Shown here: positions 3,830-42,455 of the stretch, piece after piece | How the letters are laid out: the number at the start of each line of letters is the position of its first letter | Position numbering within the stretch: the first letter of the stretch is position 1 | Assembly: GCA_016178585.1 (NCBI GenBank) | Contig: JACOTA010000019.1 | Span: 1 to 46,868 of the forward strand | Source: Nitrospirota bacterium | GTDB lineage: Bacteria > Nitrospirota > Nitrospiria > JACQBW01 | DNA length: 46,868 nucleotides | Reading direction: 5' to 3' | Translations under genes and position numbers: made by a program | The notes under the pieces: generated by a model | What the model was told of the DNA's origin: nothing | What the model saw: the letters and a program-made list of their open reading frames with translations, nothing else | Databases searched by the model: none

Positions 3830-4279
3830 ATGATGAAAATTCAACCTATTATTTTTACAGCTATTTTATTATTTTGTTTCTCTTTTTCTAACGGTTATTC
3901 ATTAGCCGCTGAGCGGGATCCTTTGCTCCCGAGGGTTCCCAAAGACCTCTTGCCAAAGGTAAAAGAGATGAAAAACCCTTTTCCGGAAACTCCTGAAAAT
4001 ATTGCCAAAGGAAAAGAAATATTCGAAGGGAAGGGGACCTGTTATGTTTGCCATGGGAAGGAAGGAAAGGGTGATGGAACGGCCGCTTCGGGTCTCGAAC
4101 CCTCTCCAAGGAATTTTACCAATCCCGCTTTTCATGCCGCGAGAACCGATGGAGAGTTATATTGGGTGATTAAAAACGGAAGCCCCGGCACGGCGATGAT
4201 CCCAATGGTAGGAAGCACGATTGACGAAGAAGAGGCGTGGTACGTTTTATTATATGAACGGACTTTTAACAAGAAGTAA
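3830..4279 (+). CDS. Periplasmic mono-haem cytochrome c
   Basis: The 149-residue precursor has an N-terminal signal peptide ending near SLAAE (about residue 27), then one haem-binding CYVCH motif (about residues 64-68) in GKEIFEGKGTCYVCHGKEGKGDG. This is typical of class I cytochrome c in the cytochrome CBB3/c6-like family. A C-terminal Met in TAMIPMVG is the likely sixth haem ligand. It is a soluble electron carrier in the periplasm. Starts at 3830 and 3833 are both ATG; 3833 is better spaced from AGAGGA. It stands alone between two repeats, so its redox partner is unknown; the bc complex at 16-21 kb is one candidate. Confidence 0.88.
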   Translation: MMKIQPIIFTAILLFCFSFSNGYSLAAERDPLLPRVPKDLLPKVKEMKNPFPETPENIAKGKEIFEGKGTCYVCHGKEGKGDGTAASGLEPSPRNFTNPAFHAARTDGELYWVIKNGSPGTAMIPMVGSTIDEEEAWYVLLYERTFNKK

Positions 4280-4283
4280 AATA

Positions 4284-4372
4284 ATGGTCTCGCAGCAGGC
4301 TTCGCCTGAGCGAGACCCGGGGTTCGGGGGCATCGGAGGATTTCACGAAGTGAAACCGCACGGGCCCCTGAA
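4284..4372. repeat. Palindromic element of repeat family B, copy 1
   Basis: This is an 89-bp GC-rich element containing the long inverted repeat GGTCTCGC / GCGAGACC, an inner CAGGC-TTC-GCCTG hairpin, the family signature GGGGTTCGGGGGCAT, and the end GGGCCCCTGAA. It is flanked by the direct repeat TAAAATA (4277-4283 and 4373-4379), suggesting insertion with target duplication in AT-rich DNA. It lies directly upstream of the metK promoter. Confidence 0.7.
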
Positions 4373-4393
4373 TAAAATAGTTGAGTTATTGCC

Positions 4394-4428: not shown

Positions 4429-4594
4429 CATCATTTTAAATGATCTCGAACTTATTTAAGATAAGAATTTTCTGGTTTTTCTTGGATTTTAAGTTTAAGG
4501 TGGAATGATTTAAGGTACAATTGCAACCACCAAAAAAAAGTGCTAATTAGTCCAGAGTTTAAAACCCTGTGCTTTTTGCATAGGGTTTTTTTTT
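4429..4594 (+). promoter_or_regulatory. Candidate divergent SAM-I (S-box-like) riboswitch leader of metK
   Basis: The segment 4523-4555 has, in order, GCAACC, a short A-rich loop, GTGCTAATT and TCCAG. These match the most conserved 3' part of the SAM-I riboswitch core (GCAACC...GGUGCUAAUUCC). AGGTGGA at 4498-4504 resembles the start of the core. A possible closing helix pairs 4484-4496 with about 4555-4567, and its 3' strand overlaps the 5' strand of the terminator stem, the usual anti-terminator arrangement. The 5' half of the core is not canonical: the GGACUGGCCC region is missing. The identification therefore rests on motif order, mutual exclusion with the terminator and position before metK. 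A different SAM-binding class or another leader is possible. Confidence 0.5.
4561..4594 (+). terminator. Intrinsic terminator in the metK leader
   Basis: A 12-bp stem with one G-U pair (4561-4572 with 4578-4589) has a TTTTT loop and runs into nine T residues. It lies between a strong promoter and metK, with no gene in between, so it is an attenuator rather than a gene-end terminator. Confidence 0.88.
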
Positions 4595-4613
4595 GAAATA
4601 AATAGAGATAAAA

Positions 4614-4720
4614 GTCTCGCAACAGGCTTTGCCTGGGCGAGGCTGGGGTTCGGGGGCATGAAAAACATAGCTTCGCTGCAGAAGCGCTTGCGAGCAAGCT
4701 TTGTGGCACAGGCCCCTGAG
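4614..4720. repeat. Composite palindromic element of repeat family B, copy 2
   Basis: This copy has GTCTCGC / GGCGAGGC arms, the GGGGTTCGGGGGCAT signature, an inner AGCTTCGCTGC...GCGAGCAAGCTTTGTGG segment also found at 28911 and 29549, and the end GGCCCCTGAG. The 5-bp direct repeat TAAAA (4609-4613 and 4721-4725) flanks it. It separates the leader terminator from metK and adds an in-frame but probably untranslated extension upstream of the metK start. Confidence 0.7.
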
Positions 4721-4742
4721 TAAAAAGCGAAGGAGCCAATTA

Positions 4743-5894
4743 ATGAGTAAAGAGAGTCATTTGTTCACCTCCGAATCGGTAACGGAAGGGCATCCCGATA
4801 AGATTGCTGACCAGATTTCCGATGCGGTTTTAGATGCGATTATTGCCCAGGATCCGACCTGCAGAGTCGCCTGTGAGACGATGTTAACGACAGGGTTAGC
4901 GTTTGTCGCAGGGGAGATTACCACATCCTGTTATGTTGAAATTCCCGATGTGGTCAGAGAAACGATTAAAAATATTGGTTATACGAGAGCCAAATACGGG
5001 TTTGATTATGAAACCTGCGGGGTCATGACCTCTATTCATAACCAGTCGCCTGATATTGCGATGGGAGTGGATACAGGGGGGGCTGGAGATCAAGGGCTTA
5101 TGTTTGGATACGCCACCAATGAAACGCCCGAACTGATGCCCATGCCGATTCTTTTAGCTCACCGTTTGACCAAGAAATTGACTGAATTGAGAAAAAATAA
5201 CAGTTTGGATTTTTTGAGACCGGATGGAAAATCGCAAGTCACTATTGAATATATCGACGGAAAGCCGAGATTTGTCAATACGGTTGTTATTTCCACTCAA
5301 CATGCTCCCGATGTAAAAATGAACGAGTTGCGTGAAGCGATTATTGAAAAAGTCATTAAACCGGTGATTCCGGCGGAACTTATTGATCCTAAAAAAATCA
5401 TCTACCATATTAACCCGACCGGCCGCTTTGTAACCGGAGGCCCGATGGGAGATACCGGTTTGACAGGGCGAAAAATCATTGTCGATACCTACGGCGGCAT
5501 GGGTCGGCATGGCGGAGGGGCCTTTTCAGGAAAAGATCCGTCGAAGGTCGACCGTTCGGCCTGCTATATGGCCCGTTATGTCGCCAAAAATTTAATCGCG
5601 GCGGGCATTGCTGAAAAGTGCGAAGTTCAGCTGGCCTATGCGATTGGGGTGGCCGATCCGATTTCGATTCTGGTGGATACGTTTAACACGTCTGACCTTC
5701 CCCATGACAAAATCACCAGGCTTGTTCGCGATCATTTCCCGTTAACGCCAAAGGGGATGATCGACCATTTAAGGTTAAGAAGACCGATATATAAAAAGAC
5801 GGCTGCTTATGGACATTTTGGAAGAACGGAGCCTGAATTTACCTGGGAAAGAACCGACCTGGCCGATACGATCAAAAAAGCCGCCGGGTTGTAA
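4743..5894 (+). CDS. metK: S-adenosylmethionine synthetase
   Basis: MetK makes SAM from methionine and ATP in the cytoplasm. The chosen ATG at 4743 gives 383 residues, the normal family length, and has AAGGAG at 4729-4734 eight bases upstream. An upstream in-frame start at 4701 lies in repeat DNA and is rejected. Diagnostic motifs are [18 protein letters not shown] near the N-terminus, [12 protein letters not shown] (around residue 115) and [16 protein letters not shown] (around residue 255, the phosphate loop). It is followed by ahcY, so the SAM synthesis and SAH recycling genes are adjacent. Expression is probably attenuated by the leader at 4429-4594. Confidence 0.98.
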
Positions 5895-12846: not shown

Positions 12847-13863
12847 CTAATCCGCTTTTCGATAGGCTTCTTCACTTGTCATTAAGGCCCAGACAATTCG
12901 AGCATTTTTGTTGGCCAGGGCCACTGCCGCAACGTTGGCGCCTCGCCGGTTCTTAATATTTCTGATCCATTGGCTTCGGGGATCTTTTTTATTGGAAGCC
13001 AGTTTGACCACGGATCGTCCCCCATGAATGAAAAGCGTTCGCAGATGCCGATCACCTCGTTTACTGATCCCCAGTAAGACGTTCTTTCCTCCGCTTGAGC
13101 GTTGGCGCGGAACCAAACCCATCCAGGCTGACATCTGTCGGCCATTCTTAAACATCTTCGCATCTCCCACCGAGGCCACCACCGCTGTGGCAGTCATAGG
13201 GCCTATCCCTTCGATCTTCCCAATCTTTTGACATATTGGATGAGCCTCAAACACCCGCTTGATCCTTTGGTCATATCCCGCTATCCTCTGATCAAAGGCC
13301 AAAAGCTGTTGATAAAGCTCATAAAATAACTCCCGGCTCATGCCGGTCAGTTCATTGTCCGTATCGGCTAAGATCGCCGGAAGACGCCGACGAACACTGG
13401 CCACTCCTTGGGGAATGACAATCCCATACTCCGCTAATAATCCTCGAATTTGATTCACAAGCGCCGTGCGATCTTTAATGATTAAATCCCGCATCCGATG
13501 AAGACTCTGGATGTCCTGTTGATCCACGCGCTTAATCGGCACAAATCGCATGTTCGGCCGGGTCAGGGCCTCACAGATCGCTTCCGCATCGTTAGAATCG
13601 TTTTTATTACTCTTCACGTACGGCTTTACAAACTGCGGGCTGATGAGTCTCACGGTATGTCCCATCTTCTCAAAAACCCGGGCCCAGTAATTGGCACCTC
13701 CACAGGCTTCTATCCCAATGACACAGGGAGGAAGATTCACAATGACTTCGGAAAGCTTCTTGCGACTGACTTGTTTCCTTAAGATCACTTTTCCTTTCTC
13801 ATTGATCCCATGAAGCTGAAACACTTGTTTTGCGATATCAATCCCTAATGTGGTAACGTTCAT
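12847..13863 (-). CDS. IS110-family transposase
   Basis: The 338-residue protein starts at an ATG behind GGAGGG. It has the N-terminal DEDD RuvC-like domain: GIDIAKQVF with Asp near residue 8, GIEACGGA with Glu near residue 49, and the NDSNDAEAI pair near residue 88. A C-terminal Tnp_20 domain contains IEGIGPMTATAVV and PRQRSSGGKNVLLGISKRGD, where the serine nucleophile of the family lies. It appears full length with no frameshift. IS110 elements usually lack terminal inverted repeats and use a structured bridge RNA from a flanking non-coding end. A family A repeat lies next to its upstream end. Confidence 0.95.
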   Translation of the reverse strand: MNVTTLGIDIAKQVFQLHGINEKGKVILRKQVSRKKLSEVIVNLPPCVIGIEACGGANYWARVFEKMGHTVRLISPQFVKPYVKSNKNDSNDAEAICEALTRPNMRFVPIKRVDQQDIQSLHRMRDLIIKDRTALVNQIRGLLAEYGIVIPQGVASVRRRLPAILADTDNELTGMSRELFYELYQQLLAFDQRIAGYDQRIKRVFEAHPICQKIGKIEGIGPMTATAVVASVGDAKMFKNGRQMSAWMGLVPRQRSSGGKNVLLGISKRGDRHLRTLFIHGGRSVVKLASNKKDPRSQWIRNIKNRRGANVAAVALANKNARIVWALMTSEEAYRKAD

Positions 13864-13961
13864 CTGGACCCTCCTTCTTTTATTGGATGAATGTTTCAAA
13901 CCTTATCAACATCCATCATGCCTTCTCTCAAGGCATTTTGAAAGAGGGATGGGTCCATCCC
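13864..13961 (-). ncRNA. Upstream non-coding end of the IS110-family element, possible bridge RNA region
   Basis: On the transposase strand this short end holds two perfect hairpins. One has arms GGGATGG / CCATCCC (13946-13961) and the other ATGCCTT / AAGGCAT (13918-13936, 5-base loop). IS110-group elements encode a bridge RNA upstream of the transposase, and IS1111-group elements downstream. The hairpins are seen; the RNA is inferred. The region is short for a complete bridge RNA unless it extends into the neighbouring repeat. Confidence 0.3.
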
Positions 13962-14098
13962 ATATATATATATAGGATTTGCAACTCCTTGTTTTGCCTG
14001 TCATCGCGAGCGCCCGCAGGGTGCGTGGCGATCTCGATTCACGATGGCGAGATTGCTTCGCTTCGCTCGCAATGACAACTTTCTATCTTTGTTCTTGG
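13959..14098. mobile_element. Degenerate MITE-like element of repeat family A, copy 2
   Basis: In the opposite orientation to the other full copies, this unit contains the internal segment AACTCCTTGTTTTGCCTGTC and the two inverted cores, and ends TTTCTATCTTTGTTCTTGG. The left terminal repeat is replaced by CCC plus a 13-base TA run, the same length as the normal CCCAAGAACAGCGATA. No matching direct repeats flank it. It abuts the IS110-family element, whose insertion or excision may have altered this end. Confidence 0.65.
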
Positions 14099-20298: not shown

Positions 20299-20360
20299 AC
20301 ACAGCTTCGCTGTGAAAGCGAACATATGGTTTTAATCATTTCTCCGATGGGCCCCTGAAT
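20299..20360. repeat. Short copy of repeat family B inside the bc operon
   Basis: The segment has a CACAGC-TTC-GCTGTG hairpin and ends with the family signature GGGCCCCTGAAT. It separates the subunit IV gene from the 38-residue membrane peptide gene. The central GGGGTTCGGGGGCAT motif is missing, so this copy is truncated or rearranged. Confidence 0.55.
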
Positions 20361-20377
20361 ATAATAGGAGGGAAATT

Positions 20378-21826: not shown

Positions 21827-21877
21827 TTTTCTTTCATTCTCCTTTATTTATTTTCATTTTCCCACTCAACAGTTCAA

Positions 21878-22013
21878 CCCAAGAACAGCGATAGAAAGTT
21901 GTCATTGCGAGCGAAGCAATCTCGCCATCGTGAACCGAGATCGCCACGCACCCTGCGGGCGCTCGCGATGACAGGCAAAACAAGGAGTTACAAATCCTAT
22001 CGCTGTTCTTGGG
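21878..22013. mobile_element. MITE-like element of repeat family A, copy 3 (best preserved)
   Basis: This 136-bp element has perfect terminal inverted repeats, CCCAAGAACAGCGATAG and CTATCGCTGTTCTTGGG. Inside are the inverted cores GTCATTGCGAGC and GCTCGCGATGAC. The 5-bp sequence TTCAA flanks both sides (21873-21877 and 22014-22018), as expected for a target-site duplication. It lies between two minus-strand genes and has no open frame of its own. Confidence 0.82.
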
Positions 22014-23770: not shown

Positions 23771-24394
23771 TTATCTATATTGGTAGACGGACAAAATCGT
23801 ATCACCGTACGGGTAGCGTTTCATCTGAGAAAAATGGCCATAGTCATCTTTAAGAGAGATTTTTTTAAAATGTTCGACGACCATGATACCGCTTTTCTGA
23901 ATCATATCACTCTCTCCCAGGACAGGCAATAATTTTTCCAAAAGACCCGCTAAATAGGGGGGATCAAGAAAAACGATATCAAATAAAACGTCTTTTTTAT
24001 ATTCAGGGGCCTGCTCGCTTCGCTCCCAATGCCCCCGAACCCCGCGTTCCGCACTGGCAGAGCCAGGTGCTTCACTTATTTTATATTTGAAAACATCCAG
24101 GCAGAGGAGAGTCGATTTGTGAGTGAACTGAAAAAGGTCGATATTTTTTTTTAAAAGTTTGAAATGATCTTTGTTTTTTTCGACGAAGGTAGAGTGATCT
24201 GCGCCCCGGCTAAGGGCTTCGATTCCTATGGCTCCTGTTCCCGCAAAGAGGTCCAGGAAATTGGAGTGAATAATTTTGTCTCCAAGAATGTTAAATAAAG
24301 CCTGTCTAACTTTGGCGCCCGTTGGGCGTAAATCGTGACCACCCAACACGGAAAGATGTTTTCCCTTTTCTAATCCGCCGGATATCTTAATCAT
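23771..24394 (-). CDS. rsmD: 16S rRNA (guanine-966-N2)-methyltransferase with in-frame repeat insertion
   Basis: RsmD methylates G966 of 16S rRNA. The 207-residue protein has the N-terminal RPTGAKVRQALFNIL motif, the SAM-binding FLDLFAGTGAIGIEALSRGA, and the catalytic DPPY in VFLDPPYLAGLLEKLLP. Between strand 4 (DVFKYK) and strand 5 (KDVLFDIVFLDPPY) lies a 28-residue segment, ISEAPGSASAERGVRGH and beyond, encoded by a family B repeat. Removing it gives 179 residues with normal family spacing. It falls in a surface loop, so the enzyme may still work. A rsmD-coaD-aminotransferase operon is likely. Confidence 0.92.
   Translation of the reverse strand: MIKISGGLEKGKHLSVLGGHDLRPTGAKVRQALFNILGDKIIHSNFLDLFAGTGAIGIEALSRGADHSTFVEKNKDHFKLLKKNIDLFQFTHKSTLLCLDVFKYKISEAPGSASAERGVRGHWERSEQAPEYKKDVLFDIVFLDPPYLAGLLEKLLPVLGESDMIQKSGIMVVEHFKKISLKDDYGHFSQMKRYPYGDTILSVYQYR
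24003..24078 (-). repeat. Family B palindromic element inserted in frame in rsmD
   Basis: The 76-bp element is flanked by an 8-bp direct repeat, TTTTATAT (23995-24002 and 24079-24086). Element plus one repeat is 84 bp, exactly 28 codons, so the reading frame is kept. In the rsmD direction it reads AAGTGAAGCACCTGGCTC, then the GGGGTTCGGGGGCAT signature, and ends CAGGCCCCTGA. It matches the element at the end of waaA nearly base for base in its first half. Confidence 0.85.
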
Positions 24395-26278: not shown

Positions 26279-26423
26279 CCCAAGACCAGCGATAGAAAGT
26301 TGTCATTGCGAGCGAAGCGAAGCAATCTCGCCATCGTGAACCGAGATCGCCACGCACCCTGCGGGCGCTCGCGATGACAGGCAAAACAAGGAGTTACAAA
26401 TCCTATCGCTATATGTTCCTGGG
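26279..26423. mobile_element. MITE-like element of repeat family A, copy 4
   Basis: This 145-bp copy starts CCCAAGACCAGCGATAG and ends CTATCGCTATATGTTCCTGGG. It contains the same internal sequence as the copy at 21878, with a small GCGAA duplication in the core and a short insertion near the right end. The flanking 5-bp direct repeat is GGCCG (26274-26278 and 26424-26428). It is the third copy with a clear 5-bp duplication. Confidence 0.82.
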
Positions 26424-28832: not shown

Positions 28833-28853
28833 GAGGACGACAATAATATAAAT

Positions 28854-28950
28854 GATAAGTGAAGCAACCGGTTTAGTGGGTGCAAAACATAGGATTTGGG
28901 ATATAAAATTATAGCTTCGCTGCGGGAACGCTCGCGAGCAAGCTTTGTGG
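28854..28950. repeat. Diverged family B repeat between bamA and skp
   Basis: The segment starts ATAAGTGAAGCAACCGG, as in the rsmD and waaA copies, then departs. It ends with the AGCTTCGCTGC...GCGAGCAAGCTTTGTGG unit also present in the copies at 4614 and 29549. It runs right up to the GGGAGG ribosome site of skp, so the element now forms part of the skp leader. Confidence 0.55.
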
Positions 28951-28960
28951 GAGGTTTTTC

Positions 28961-29494: not shown

Positions 29495-29548
29495 ATATTA
29501 ATCTCAAGCCTATCGTTCGAATATCGAGGCAATTAAAACAAAAACATT

Positions 29549-29590
29549 AGCTTCGCTGCGGAATCGCTCGCGAGCAAGCTTTGTGGCTCC
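29549..29590. repeat. AGCTTCGCTGC unit of repeat family B
   Basis: A 42-base unit, AGCTTCGCTGCGGAATCGCT followed by CGCGAGCAAGCTTTGTGGC, repeats the sequence in the copies at 4614 and 28911. It can fold through AGCTTCGCTGC / GCGAGCAAGCT. It lies between skp and lpxD in a 212-bp gap. No other feature is evident there, and no clear promoter is visible. Confidence 0.55.
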
Positions 29591-37370: not shown

Positions 37371-38747
37371 ATGGCCTCTTTTCTTTACAATTTCATACTC
37401 CTGTTACTCTCTCCACTCATTTTTGTTTGGTGGGGACTCAGTTTGTTTGTTCGAAAATACAGTGTCGGATGGAGCCAGCGGGTAGGTTTTCTTTCATCCG
37501 AAATGATAAATTCCTTAAAAAATCGTTCCGTTTTATGGGTGCACGCGGTCTCAGTAGGTGAAGTCCACGCGGCGATACCGATGATCCGGCTCTTAAAGGA
37601 AAGGTTTCCGGATAAAAAGCTTATTTTTTCGACCGTCACCGTAACCGGGCACAAGACCGTTGCCGCCAAGATAAAAGGAATCGACGGTCTGTTTTACTTC
37701 CCATTTGACATCCCGTGGATCATTAAAAGAGTCATTAGAATGCTCCATCCTTCGATTTTTATATTTTTTGAAACGGAAATCTGGCCTAATCTGCTGGGAA
37801 ATCTTAAAAAGAACGGCATTCCTTCGGTTTTGGTGAATGGCCGGATATCCAATCGCTCATTTTCCCGTTATCTTAAAATAAAATGGTTGATGAAGGAGTG
37901 GATCGGAAACATCTCTCTGGCTCTCATGCAAACAGAGGAAGACAGGTTTAAAATGTTAGAGCTAGGCGCGGACCCCTGTAGAATCATGACCACCGGGAAT
38001 ACGAAATATGATCAGTTAAAACAACCGGATAAAATTCCTTTTGGCCAAATTTCTGTTTTAGGCCAATGGGATTGGTGGGTTGCCGGCAGCACCCATCCGG
38101 GAGAGGAAGAGATGATTTTAAACGCTTATCTTCGTCTTAGAAACGAGTTTCCCAGGCTGGGTTTAATAATAGCCCCGCGGCATCCGGAAAGATTTTCAGA
38201 AGTTTCCGGTCTGATCGAACAGAAGGGGATTTTTTATTCCAGAAAGAGCCAGTTAAAAAATGAAACGGTCTGGAAAAGTCATTTTCCCCCGGTGATTTTA
38301 CTGGATACCATTGGGGAGCTTTCGGAATTTTATTATTGGGCCACGATAGCGTTTATAGGAGGCAGTCTGGTTCCCAAAGGAGGTCATAATATCCTGGAGG
38401 CGGTCATCTGGGGGAAAGCCCCTTTTTTTGGAAAATATTCTGAAAATTTCAAGGAGATGGTGCAAATTTTCAAAGAAAACAACGCGGGAATAGAGATTTC
38501 CAGCGAAGAAGAACTCGTTCCAAAAATCGGTTTGTATCTTAAAAACAAGAATCTTTTGGAGGAGAAAGGAAAGACCGCCTTAAAGACTCTCCATGAAAAT
38601 CAGGGCGCAACCGATAGAAATATGGACCTGATTGAAAAGCTGATAAGTGAAGCAACTGGCTCTGCCAGTGCGGAACGCGGGGTTCGGGGGCATCGGAGGA
38701 CGCGAAGCGCCGCACGGGCCCCTGAATCAGAGAGATATGAAAACTGA
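37371..38747 (+). CDS. waaA: 3-deoxy-D-manno-octulosonic-acid transferase with repeat-encoded tail
   Basis: WaaA (KdtA, GT30) adds Kdo to lipid A at the inner membrane. The 458-residue protein has an N-terminal anchor (residues about 3-24) and the active-site region WVHAVSVGEVHAAIPMI (Glu near 63). FETEIWPNLL and GGSLVPKGGHNILEAVIWGK also match the family. Family members have about 420-430 residues. Here the last 35 residues (from LISEATGSASAERGVRGH on) are encoded by a family B repeat, so the native end was about residue 423. It overlaps lpxK by 11 bp. Confidence 0.95.
   Translation: MASFLYNFILLLLSPLIFVWWGLSLFVRKYSVGWSQRVGFLSSEMINSLKNRSVLWVHAVSVGEVHAAIPMIRLLKERFPDKKLIFSTVTVTGHKTVAAKIKGIDGLFYFPFDIPWIIKRVIRMLHPSIFIFFETEIWPNLLGNLKKNGIPSVLVNGRISNRSFSRYLKIKWLMKEWIGNISLALMQTEEDRFKMLELGADPCRIMTTGNTKYDQLKQPDKIPFGQISVLGQWDWWVAGSTHPGEEEMILNAYLRLRNEFPRLGLIIAPRHPERFSEVSGLIEQKGIFYSRKSQLKNETVWKSHFPPVILLDTIGELSEFYYWATIAFIGGSLVPKGGHNILEAVIWGKAPFFGKYSENFKEMVQIFKENNAGIEISSEEELVPKIGLYLKNKNLLEEKGKTALKTLHENQGATDRNMDLIEKLISEATGSASAERGVRGHRRTRSAARAPESERYEN
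38642..38731 (+). repeat. Family B palindromic element at the 3' end of waaA
   Basis: The element reads ATAAGTGAAGCAACTGGCTC, then the GGGGTTCGGGGGCAT signature and the end GGGCCCCTGAAT. It is nearly identical in its first 50 bases to the copy in rsmD and is read in the same frame, giving ISEA(T/P)GSASAERGVRGH in both. It extends waaA and provides the leader of lpxK. I see no clear flanking direct repeat. Confidence 0.8.
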
Positions 38748-39851: not shown

Positions 39852-40745
39852 ATGACTCCGATTATCCAATATCTCCAGTATCTTGTTTTTATTTTCATTG
39901 AGAAAGTATTTAACATTCTTCCCTGTCCATATGCCTTGCGATTGGGAAAGGGGTTGGGAACTCTTTTTTATTATTTGGACAAACGCCATCGAACGGTAGC
40001 TCTTGAAAACCTGGAGATGATATACGGAACCCGGAAAACTTCTGAAGAGATCAAAAAGATTTCGTTAAGTTGTTTTGAAAATTTAGGGATCTCAATCGCT
40101 GAAATGATTCGTTTAAAAAACATGAATGAGAAAGAGCTTTTGAAAAGCATTTCGGTCGAGGGGATGGAGCATTATCACGAGGCAATGAAAAAGGGGAGGG
40201 GCCTGGTTTTTATCGGAGCCCATTTCGGTAATTGGGAAATGCTGGCAATTGTTATTTCCCTGTTATTTCAAAAGGGCTATGTTGTCGCCAGGAAACTGGA
40301 CAATCCCTTCATTCATCAGAGAATTGAAAAAACAAGAACTTTTACAGGGAACCATTTTATCAATAAGAACGATGCCTTTTGGGAAATGATGAAGCTTTTA
40401 AAAAAAGGGGAACTGGTCGGTGTTTTAATGGATCAAAATGTCGCGAAGAGGGAAGGGGTTTTTGTTCCATTTTTTGGCCACCCGGCGTGTACCAATAAAG
40501 GGTTGGCGATGATCGTTCTAAAAACAAAAACTCCCATGATTCCGATTTTTATGATTCGTTTGCCGAACGGAACTCATCATGTCATTGTAAAACCGGAGCT
40601 TCCGCTTGTCCAGACCGGTCATTTAAAAAATGATGTGCGTCAAAATACGGCCCAGATTACGCTTGCGATTGAAGAGATGGTGAGCCAATGTCCCGAACAG
40701 TGGTTATGGATGCATCGGAGATGGAAAACCCAGAATGCCCCCTGA
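39852..40745 (+). CDS. lpxL: LpxL/HtrB-family lipid A acyltransferase
   Basis: This enzyme adds a secondary acyl chain to Kdo-lipid A. The protein has an N-terminal membrane segment (QYLQYLVFIFIEKVF) and the catalytic HFGNWE motif (H-x4-E) in FIGAHFGNWEMLA. The later motifs MDQNVAKREGVFVPFFG and PEQWLWMHRRWKT are also typical. The ATG at 39852 gives 297 residues; an alternative ATG at 39813 would overlap lpxK by 34 bp and give 310. Which acyl chain it adds, laurate-like or other, cannot be read from the sequence. It overlaps the next gene by 11 bp. Confidence 0.92.
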   Translation: MTPIIQYLQYLVFIFIEKVFNILPCPYALRLGKGLGTLFYYLDKRHRTVALENLEMIYGTRKTSEEIKKISLSCFENLGISIAEMIRLKNMNEKELLKSISVEGMEHYHEAMKKGRGLVFIGAHFGNWEMLAIVISLLFQKGYVVARKLDNPFIHQRIEKTRTFTGNHFINKNDAFWEMMKLLKKGELVGVLMDQNVAKREGVFVPFFGHPACTNKGLAMIVLKTKTPMIPIFMIRLPNGTHHVIVKPELPLVQTGHLKNDVRQNTAQITLAIEEMVSQCPEQWLWMHRRWKTQNAP

Positions 40746-42423
40746 ATTAGAATTCAAAGTTAAGCCTGAATGGATTAAAAGGATTTTAATTAGAACGCCT
40801 AATTGGATTGGAGATGCCGTTCTTTCAATCCCCGCGATGACTGCCGTTCGAAAACATTTTAGGAATTCAAAGATTTCTATCCTCGGTCCGGATTCCGTTA
40901 TTCAACTGTTGCTAGAAAATAAAATCGCCGACGACTTTATTTCTCTTGATAACAATTATCGGAGCGTTGGGGGTAAATTACGGTTAATTCAAAACCTGAA
41001 AAAGCAAAGGTTCGACCTTGCCATTCTTTTTCAAAACGCGTTTGAAGCCGCTCTCATTACCTTTTTATCTTCTATTCGGTACCGTTATGGATATAACAGG
41101 GATGGACGAGGTTTCCTGTTAACCGATCCGGTTCCTTTTTTTTCGAAATCTGAAAAGATCCATCAACTTCAATTCTATCTTAACCTGGTAAAGCCGTTAA
41201 TCGGGGTGGAACCGGTTTTTGAAAAACCCGTTCTGAAAATATCTGAAAGAGAAAAAGCCAGGGCCCGGATTTTGTTCGAAGAGGAAGGAATCCTGGAAAA
41301 TAAAAAAATGATCGGAATGAATCCTGGCGCGGCCTACGGATCGGCCAAAAGATGGCTTCCGGAAAGATTTTCACAGCTGGCGGATCGTTTCATCAGGGAA
41401 ACTCAAAGCCAGGTTGTTTTTTTTGGCTCATCTAGCGAAACGGCTCTTGTAAAAAAAATTCAAAGTCAAATGACCGAAAAATCATTTGCGTTAACCGGAA
41501 AGACAAATTTAAGAGAGCTGATTGCGGCGATTGCCCGTTGTTCCTGGTTTGTCACGAATGACTCCGGTCCGATGCATATTGCAAGTGCTTTAAATATTCC
41601 TACCCTCTCGATTTTTGGTCCAACAGATGATACAACCACATCGCCGGTGGGAGACGATTCCGTCATGATCAAAAAGAATGTTGAATGCTCCCCCTGTCTG
41701 ATGAGGGAATGTCCGATTGACCACCGTTGTATGACCTCGATAACGGTTGACGAGGTATTCAATCTTTTTCACACCTCCTGGTTATCCGGAAAAGAGTCTT
41801 CTTCTCCGGCTGTTTTTCTTGACCGGGATGGGACGATCAATGAAGATACCCATTATGTTTCATCAGAAGAACAATTTAAGATATTTCCAGAAACTTCGGA
41901 GGGAATCTTGTTGCTTAATCAGATACAGGTCCCGGTTTTTGTAGTTTCGAACCAATCCGGCGTTGAAAGAGGTTTTTTTACCGAGGCGTTGCTCTTAAAG
42001 CTTCATATGAAACTGGAGGCAGACCTTAACCGGGTTCAAGCCAAAATTTCAGGGTTTTATTATTGTCCGCACCGCCCTGAAACCGGATGTTTTTGCCGAA
42101 AACCAAAGGTCGGAATGATCAACAAGATTCTTGAAAAGTATCCGGTCAATTTAAAAAAGTCGTATTTTGTGGGAGATCAGCTTTCAGACCTTGAATTGGC
42201 CAATCGAATCGGAGCAAAAGGGATTTTGGTGCTGACCGGCAAAGGGAAGGAAACCCTGATGAAGTTAAAAGATCAACCCGATATTATTCCGGTATATGTT
42301 GCCGACAATATTCTTCATGCGGCTAGGTGGATACAAGAAGATTTTAAAAACGCCGATTCGGACCTAAAACAAACACATAAAAAACGCGTCATTGCGAGAA
42401 GTGAAACGACGAAGCAATCTTAG
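40735..42423 (+). CDS. Fusion of heptosyltransferase (WaaF-like, GT9) and heptose bisphosphate phosphatase (GmhB-like)
   Basis: The 562-residue protein has a GT9 domain in residues 1-345 (IRTPNWIGDAVLSIPAM, MNPGAAYGSAKRWLPERF, TNDSGPMHIASALNIP, GPTD, and a C-x2-C...C segment typical of WaaF). A HAD phosphatase domain spans about 358-545 (VFLDRDGTINEDTHYV, VVSNQSGVERGFF, the zinc motif CPHRPETGCFC, and YFVGDQLSDLELANRIGA). This joins two steps of heptose use: GmhB makes heptose-1-phosphate for ADP-heptose, and GT9 transfers heptose to the core. The last residues, VIARSETTKQS, are encoded by a family A core repeat, so the native C-terminus is replaced. Confidence 0.92.
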   Translation: MPPELEFKVKPEWIKRILIRTPNWIGDAVLSIPAMTAVRKHFRNSKISILGPDSVIQLLLENKIADDFISLDNNYRSVGGKLRLIQNLKKQRFDLAILFQNAFEAALITFLSSIRYRYGYNRDGRGFLLTDPVPFFSKSEKIHQLQFYLNLVKPLIGVEPVFEKPVLKISEREKARARILFEEEGILENKKMIGMNPGAAYGSAKRWLPERFSQLADRFIRETQSQVVFFGSSSETALVKKIQSQMTEKSFALTGKTNLRELIAAIARCSWFVTNDSGPMHIASALNIPTLSIFGPTDDTTTSPVGDDSVMIKKNVECSPCLMRECPIDHRCMTSITVDEVFNLFHTSWLSGKESSSPAVFLDRDGTINEDTHYVSSEEQFKIFPETSEGILLLNQIQVPVFVVSNQSGVERGFFTEALLLKLHMKLEADLNRVQAKISGFYYCPHRPETGCFCRKPKVGMINKILEKYPVNLKKSYFVGDQLSDLELANRIGAKGILVLTGKGKETLMKLKDQPDIIPVYVADNILHAARWIQEDFKNADSDLKQTHKKRVIARSETTKQS

Positions 42424-42455
42424 AGCCAGGGATTGCTTCGCTACGCTCGCAATGA
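42389..42455. repeat. REP-like core copy of family A at the 3' end of the waaF-gmhB gene
   Basis: TCATTGCGAGAAG and GATTGCTTCGCTACGCTCGCAATGA form an imperfect hairpin. The element spans the stop codon of the fusion gene and supplies its last codons. No 16-bp terminal repeats are visible, so it is a core-only copy like the one at 163. Confidence 0.75.

Follow-up and report, generated by a model that had tools for sequence, protein, structure and literature searches.

The stretch of DNA analysed here (the window) covers 46,868 nucleotides of a contig from a Nitrospirota bacterium of the class Nitrospiria. The gene of interest, rsmD, is of the 16S rRNA methyltransferase type (Table 1). Its open frame has 207 codons, including an insert, and contains no internal stop. 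The match of this frame to PF03602 (E value of 3e-46) is split in two stretches. The methylases of PDB entries 2fhp and 2ift align with the sequences flanking the insert and leave a gap across it, and the solved structures of RsmD-type proteins align up to about residue 100 and again from about residue 132. The foreign stretch is 84 bp in length and corresponds to 28 codons, which precede the DPPY motif. Removal of these 84 bp gives a frame of 179 codons, in which ...DVFKYK is joined directly to KDVLFDIVFLDPPY..., in agreement with the in-frame insertion proposed in a preliminary description of this locus.

Table 1. Features of the rsmD gene and copies of the repeat family in the window.
Feature	Position	Strand	Observations
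rsmD (16S rRNA methyltransferase type)	23771-24394	minus	Open frame; PF03602 in two stretches; PDB homologues
Inserted unit in rsmD	23994-24077	minus	84 bp: 75-bp two-hairpin core (24003-24077) and 9-bp AT-rich tail (23994-24002); encodes ISEAPGSASAERGVRGHWERSEQAPEYK; absent from rsmD of G001 and G002
Right-hand (gene-strand 3') copy of claimed duplication	23995-24002	minus	TTTTATAT; overlaps with ATATAAAA, the tail of the element itself
Left-hand (gene-strand 5') copy of claimed duplication	24079-24086	minus	TTTTATAT; native AT-rich rsmD sequence
Family copy	4283-4377	plus	R1 score 90.1 bits; about 4 nt past the stop of a c-type cytochrome-like ORF (3830-4279)
Family copy with long apical module	4610-4725	plus	R1 score 55.5 bits; upstream of metK (start at 4743)
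Family copy, waaA-lpxK junction	38643-38731	plus	R1 score 91.6 bits
Possible fragment, 3' end and tail only	20343-20367	plus	Direct repeat family D7
Possible degenerate copy, 5' part only	28853-28900	plus	Direct repeat family D10

The boundaries of the insert were set by the consensus of the repeat family described below, and are exact to about 1-2 nt. The covariance model of the family (R1) matches the insert with 89.6 bits at 23997-24079. The two copies of TTTTATAT, and the 76 bp between them (24003-24078), are present exactly where the preliminary description had placed them. A predicted tryptic peptide of the insert is ISEAPGSASAER.

The insert is missing from rsmD in the two nearest relatives available, G001 (a Nitrospirae groundwater MAG, JACQBY01) and G002, which are members of other genera in the same family. 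The RsmD protein of G001 shares 68% and 67% identity with the two matched parts, and that of G002 61% and 61%. After removal of the 84 bp, the rsmD loop has the same length as that in G002 and is one residue shorter than that in G001. The preliminary description had taken occupation of the site in all relatives, or a homologous segment in RsmD of unrelated lineages, as grounds against an insertion. The site is empty in both relatives, and no stretch homologous to the insert was found in RsmD of other members of the class.

The window also carries a second dispersed repeat family (TTGTCATTGCGAGCGAAGCGAAGCAATC...), at 13964-14098, 21876-22004, 26279-26414, and 42431-42455. Two of its copies are identical over 95 nt. 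The copy at 42431-42455 is read as the C-terminus (VIARSETTKQS) of the ORF at 40735-42423, and another adjoins an ORF for an IS110-type transposase (12847-13899, minus strand, assigned by eye).

Distribution and structure of the repeat family

The 15-mer core GGGGTTCGGGGGCAT has 80 exact copies in the 2.45-Mb source genome, compared to 0 for the reversed control, and three of these besides that in rsmD are located in the window. Together with the empty rsmD sites, this identifies the insert as a dispersed element. A search of the source genome with R1 finds about 141 family copies, and the statistics for this genome rest on the 135 that were located. The genomes are draft MAGs for which gene calls were made in-house, and the source genome is 96% complete. 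Six other genomes have 70, 20, 12, 29, 28, and 15 copies, and 27 of the 270 Nitrospiria genomes searched carry the family. In a sample of the phylum (396 genomes), the carriers are 13 members of Nitrospiria and one genome of another class. The latter, which is 70% complete, has a single good model match (G329:C100:7048-7135, L148; 66.7 bits), and this copy may be due either to transfer or to binning contamination.

No family element has a match in Rfam 15 at E values up to 1, and no family match was found in viral contigs, plasmids, and phages. None of the loci sampled showed a longer, autonomous form of the element with these ends. No published description of the family was found in the literature searched (mostly open-access papers), and this two-hairpin repeat of Nitrospiria is apparently undescribed so far.

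The element folds into two hairpins, the first with the pattern C-N-GGC-UUN-GCC-N-G. The second has a longer stem (NNNGGGGGC...GCCCCNNN) with an exchangeable apical module. The GGGG between the two hairpins is near-invariant and located outside the predicted pairing. In an alignment of 91 copies from several genera (A2), 95.4% of the cells are paired, and two-sided changes are observed for 11 of the 14 pairs. The covariation score is 0.333, compared to 0.129 ± 0.007 for shuffled and at most 0.083 for slid controls; A2 was fitted to the model, which somewhat favours the structure, and the slid controls are still far below it. In copies from other families, UUCG/UGAA is replaced by UCUG/CAGA, UGUG/CACA, or UCCG/CGGA. 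The compensatory changes support one fold, and on this basis the family is probably a structured RNA. In a second alignment (A1), 67 of the 76 copies retain a G.U pair, and an RNA therefore appears more fitting than a DNA cruciform.

The preliminary description had called the element palindromic. It does form hairpins, but these are two separate ones, and neither a full palindrome nor terminal inverted repeats were seen in the aligned ends of the 76 copies. The ends of the element, AAGTGAAGC and CCCCTGAATATAA, are not inverted copies of each other. The core is 75-87 bp long in most copies, and 75-145 bp across the family.

Many copies (L010, L013, L017, L088, L094, L101, L108, and others) have a 31-nt module, GACGGACTTGGGAATGGTCGTAGTTAGACCGA, between the hairpins, and L013 and L019 have two tandem copies of this module. 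The window contains a third repeat (TAGCTTCGCTGCGG...GCAAGCTTTGTGG) at 4661-4707, 28905-28951, and 29541-29587. This repeat occurs by itself and, in addition, nested in the second hairpin of the family as its apical module.

Copies between genes, beside tRNAs and within genes

Most copies are located in gaps between co-directional genes. Among 197 located copies in the three genomes of the bacterial family, 138 in such gaps are sense and 13 are antisense (P = 1.5e-27). The 3' end of the element is mostly 9-35 nt ahead of the next start codon, adjoining the ribosome-binding region. In 19 cases in the source genome, the stop codon of the upstream gene is within the first 8 nt of the element. The orthologous junctions in relatives are mostly empty, with gaps of 12, 14, 22, 29, and 32 nt as examples. 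A few junctions are occupied in common, tig-clpP with G002, and atpE-atpF, ribAB-ribH, and the tRNA-Pro/surE site with G001. The pth-pyrophosphatase junction is also occupied in a member of another family (G019).

In the window, the copy at the waaA-lpxK junction is read in frame as the final residues of the waaA ORF (SEATGSASAERGVRGHRRTRSAARAPE), and the ATG of lpxK follows within about 10 nt. Ahead of metK, a SAM-II riboswitch match (4494-4555, plus strand; 43.2 bits, compared to a gathering threshold of 44) is separated from the gene by the copy at 4610-4725.

In 20 copies, the 3' end of the element is 5-17 nt away from the edge of a tRNA or tmRNA, with 12 of them at the 5' end (sense) and 8 at the 3' end (antisense). 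Within this range, the 3' end of the element always faces the tRNA. As both strands of the tRNA are used, it is probably the insertion target, and not a function as leader, that determines the orientation. One copy (in G036, L162:2474-2571) is directly ahead of a tmRNA gene, and one in G002 (L157) abuts the 3' end of tmRNA, antisense. Co-directional gene gaps and tRNA/tmRNA edges are thus the main habitat of the family, with a directional bias. The preliminary description had overlooked this habitat, as well as the covarying RNA-type structure spread across a class.

In-frame copies are found in 11 genes of three genomes. A search for the family signature inside genes had been suggested at the outset, and the copies that it revealed in gyrB, cobB, apt, midA, uvrD, and other genes bear out the suggested likeness to the Rickettsia palindromic element. 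The hosts in the source genome are rsmD, gyrB, cobB, apt, a molybdopterin oxidoreductase, and an RND-type transporter, the copy in the last of these being weak and atypical. Those in G001 are midA, an ABC transporter ATPase (two copies), a histidine kinase, and the UvrD helicase, and that in G002 is a protein with an aminopeptidase N-domain (two copies). The gyrB copy is located after codon 5, the N-terminus of gyrB has no element in the four relatives compared, and a predicted tryptic peptide of the GyrB insert is KSEAPAKPGGAR. A mirror case is presented by midA, which is occupied in G001 (L116:3180-3274) and unoccupied in the source genome (L006) and the other genomes matched. The element apparently can enter essential genes without breaking the frame. 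With empty sites in relatives for rsmD, gyrB, and midA, the family is by function a putative in-frame protein-coding palindromic element.

The midA gene of the source genome has no element, although its sequence includes AAAGCGAAGCAACT, which corresponds to the initial 14 nt of the consensus of the element. This is part of a 38-nt stretch that is identical between the G001 and source genes, the proteins of which are about 65% identical. The AAAGCGAAGCAACT segment may be either a remnant or a target resembling the head of the element.

The in-gene copies use all three sense frames, and 13 are sense compared to 2 antisense. Of 405 antisense frames, 241 are open, compared to 80 of 405 sense frames, a threefold difference, and stop codons therefore do not explain the sense bias.

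The placement of the copies invites an explanation as cis-regulatory or RNA-processing leaders. In this case, an intercistronic hairpin and its AU-rich spacer would insulate, stabilise, or process operon mRNAs and pre-tRNAs before the ribosome-binding site. The element would have been amplified as useful, and the copies in rsmD and gyrB would be rare strays. The sense bias, the short distance to the start codons, the RNA-type covariation with its retained G.U pair, and the sites common to genera, with one in another family, are consistent with such leaders. However, most orthologous junctions are empty, the copy number varies from 141 down to 12 between genomes, and the genes downstream have no common theme. 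Moreover, the in-gene copies are also sense, and those adjoining a tRNA 3' end run opposite to the tRNA. This explanation is considered unlikely for the family, and a regulatory or processing role is possible at some of the conserved junctions.

The AT-rich tail and the mode of spread

The core is followed by a conserved tail, ATAWAAT, on the right flank. In 151 right flanks, the frequencies at positions 2, 3, 5, and 6 are 85% for T, 74% for A, 72% for A, and 85% for A, and the tail is present near and far from start codons alike. The left flanks have no conserved tail of this kind. A sigma-70 promoter in the TATAAT-like tail was considered and is unlikely as a general role, as the tail directly adjoins the 5' ends of mature tRNAs, leaving too little distance for a start site, and is also found antisense at tRNA 3' ends.

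The preliminary description had interpreted the two copies of TTTTATAT as an 8-bp target duplication, such as a DDE transposase would produce in mobilising a classical MITE. The 8-bp repeat in rsmD is perfect, and there is a small excess of left-right flank similarity in a permutation test (mean of 2.30 compared to 1.67 for permuted flanks, with scores of at least 7 for five of 75 copies compared to 1.5 expected). However, the right-hand copy overlaps the 3' tail of the family, and 14 of 118 other copies (12%) have tails that match the left flank of rsmD equally well over 8 bp. In addition, the tail is conserved on one flank only, and the terminal inverted repeats of a MITE were not seen. The flank comparison suggests that the similarity excess is largely explained by the intrinsic tail. 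The permutation and flank-composition tests give no clear support for an 8-bp target duplication as a feature of the family or of the rsmD insertion, and a MITE is quite improbable. Based on the tail and the chance matches, the rsmD unit was defined as the 75-bp core with a 9-bp tail. Insertion at sites that resemble the junction between the tail and the head of the element finds weak support.

The RNA-type covariation with G.U pairs, and an in-gene sense bias that stop codons do not explain, could also be explained by a SINE-like RNA that re-enters the genome through reverse transcription. However, no match to RVT_1 (PF00078) was found in the source genome (G000), G001, or G002, so that the source genome and its family relatives offer no reverse transcriptase as the mobiliser, and the copies next to tRNA 3' ends are in antisense orientation to it. 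This origin is very improbable. Spread as an REP/BIME element, by means of a RAYT (Y1) transposase, is the least probable of all: the family does consist of small hairpin repeats with more than 100 copies, and intragenic REPs are known (PMC3733652), but six carriers (G002, G025, G036, G044, G046, and G050) have no Y1_Tnp match while many non-carriers have one, the element ends have no GTAG/CGTC tag (A1), and the copies are located before genes rather than after them.

The best explanation, with a probability of about 75%, is that the rsmD insert is a copy of a small, non-autonomous, trans-mobilised mobile repeat family with two hairpins, distributed across the class and inserting directionally. 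The unit consists of a core of 75-145 bp and an AT-rich tail of about 8-9 nt, and would be spread by machinery that presumably acts in trans. The 3' tail would be placed beside a downstream ribosome-binding region or a tRNA/tmRNA edge, and such directional insertion would lead to the observed accumulation in co-directional gene gaps. The gaps between operon genes would also be where an insertion harms least. A gene entered by a copy would survive when the length of the copy is divisible by three and one of its sense frames has no stops, and would then gain an extra loop of about 25-32 residues. The enlarged RsmD is putatively still active. The orientation would reflect the targeting of insertion rather than a benefit to the host. 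Mobility is suggested by the presence and absence of copies between genera. A handful of junctions common to genera, and one common to families, count against a mobile repeat and also fit functional selection.

A more tentative proposal is that the family represents a new kind of mobile element. It would combine a covarying RNA-type fold, kept because mobility needs it, with directional insertion and an AT-rich 3' tail that abuts ribosome-binding regions and tRNA/tmRNA ends, and would have no inverted repeats, target duplication, reverse transcriptase, or Y1 transposase.

Comparison with known repeats and significance

In their coding copies, the repeats resemble the Rickettsia palindromic elements (RPEs) and the protein-coding palindromes of Wolbachia (Ogata et al. 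2000, 2002, 2005, reviewed in PMC2229807 and PMC10969869). These are also small hairpin repeats, found between genes and in frame in conserved genes, with a tolerated peptide. RPEs are 105-146 bp long and have terminal inverted repeats (PMC2229807). In comparison, the Nitrospiria family is without such repeats, is unrelated in sequence by the searches made, and belongs to free-living Nitrospirota. Its copies are mostly found in co-directional gaps, in one orientation, or beside tRNAs.

The enterobacterial ERIC/RU-1, RU-2, and RU-3 and the NEMIS/Correia elements of Neisseria are likewise small and non-autonomous, have open frames, and are located in genes and transcribed gaps. Their transcripts form long hairpins, and ERIC and Correia elements have inverted repeats and TA target duplications (PMC2759123, PMC2229807). 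Neither of these features was seen in the Nitrospiria family. The GTAG/CGTC REPs and REPINs share the hairpins in more than 100 copies per genome, the tandem clusters, and some intragenic copies. REPs have a length of 20-40 bp, a tetranucleotide tag, and a position mainly downstream of genes, and are RAYT-dependent (PMC3733652, PMC2817692), whereas the Nitrospiria copies are directly upstream of genes and their occurrence does not follow that of Y1 genes, so that mobilisation by RAYT is strongly disfavoured.

In-frame repeats in genes are thus documented for RPE, ERIC, the 107-bp NEMIS, and intragenic REPs (PMC2229807, PMC2759123, PMC3733652, PMC10969869). The preliminary description knew of no such elements outside the Rickettsia type of group, which does not hold in view of ERIC/RU, NEMIS, and the GTAG-REPs (PMC2759123, PMC2229807, PMC3733652). 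In its function, the Nitrospiria repeat would work like the RPE, ERIC, NEMIS, and REP insertions, and by the features tested it is a member of none of these families.

In their position between genes, the copies are similar to the mycobacterial interspersed repetitive units (MIRU). Both this family and MIRU are short repeats that separate the genes of operons and run in the same direction as transcription, beside the upstream stop and the downstream start codon. MIRU, reportedly described by Supply and colleagues in 1997, are said to be small coding units that bridge stop and start codons. Unlike MIRU, the Nitrospiria family has a conserved two-hairpin fold, and an AT-rich tail ahead of the ribosome-binding site.

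The family extends protein-coding mobile repeats to free-living Nitrospirota. Its directional placement against ribosome-binding regions and tRNA ends is new for such elements in the literature compared. With more than 100 copies in one genome and many carrier genomes, the family lends itself to questions on the cause of the insertion orientation, on whether mobility or a part played in operon mRNAs has preserved the fold, and on the tolerance of enzymes such as GyrB and RsmD for an arbitrary loop of 28-32 residues.
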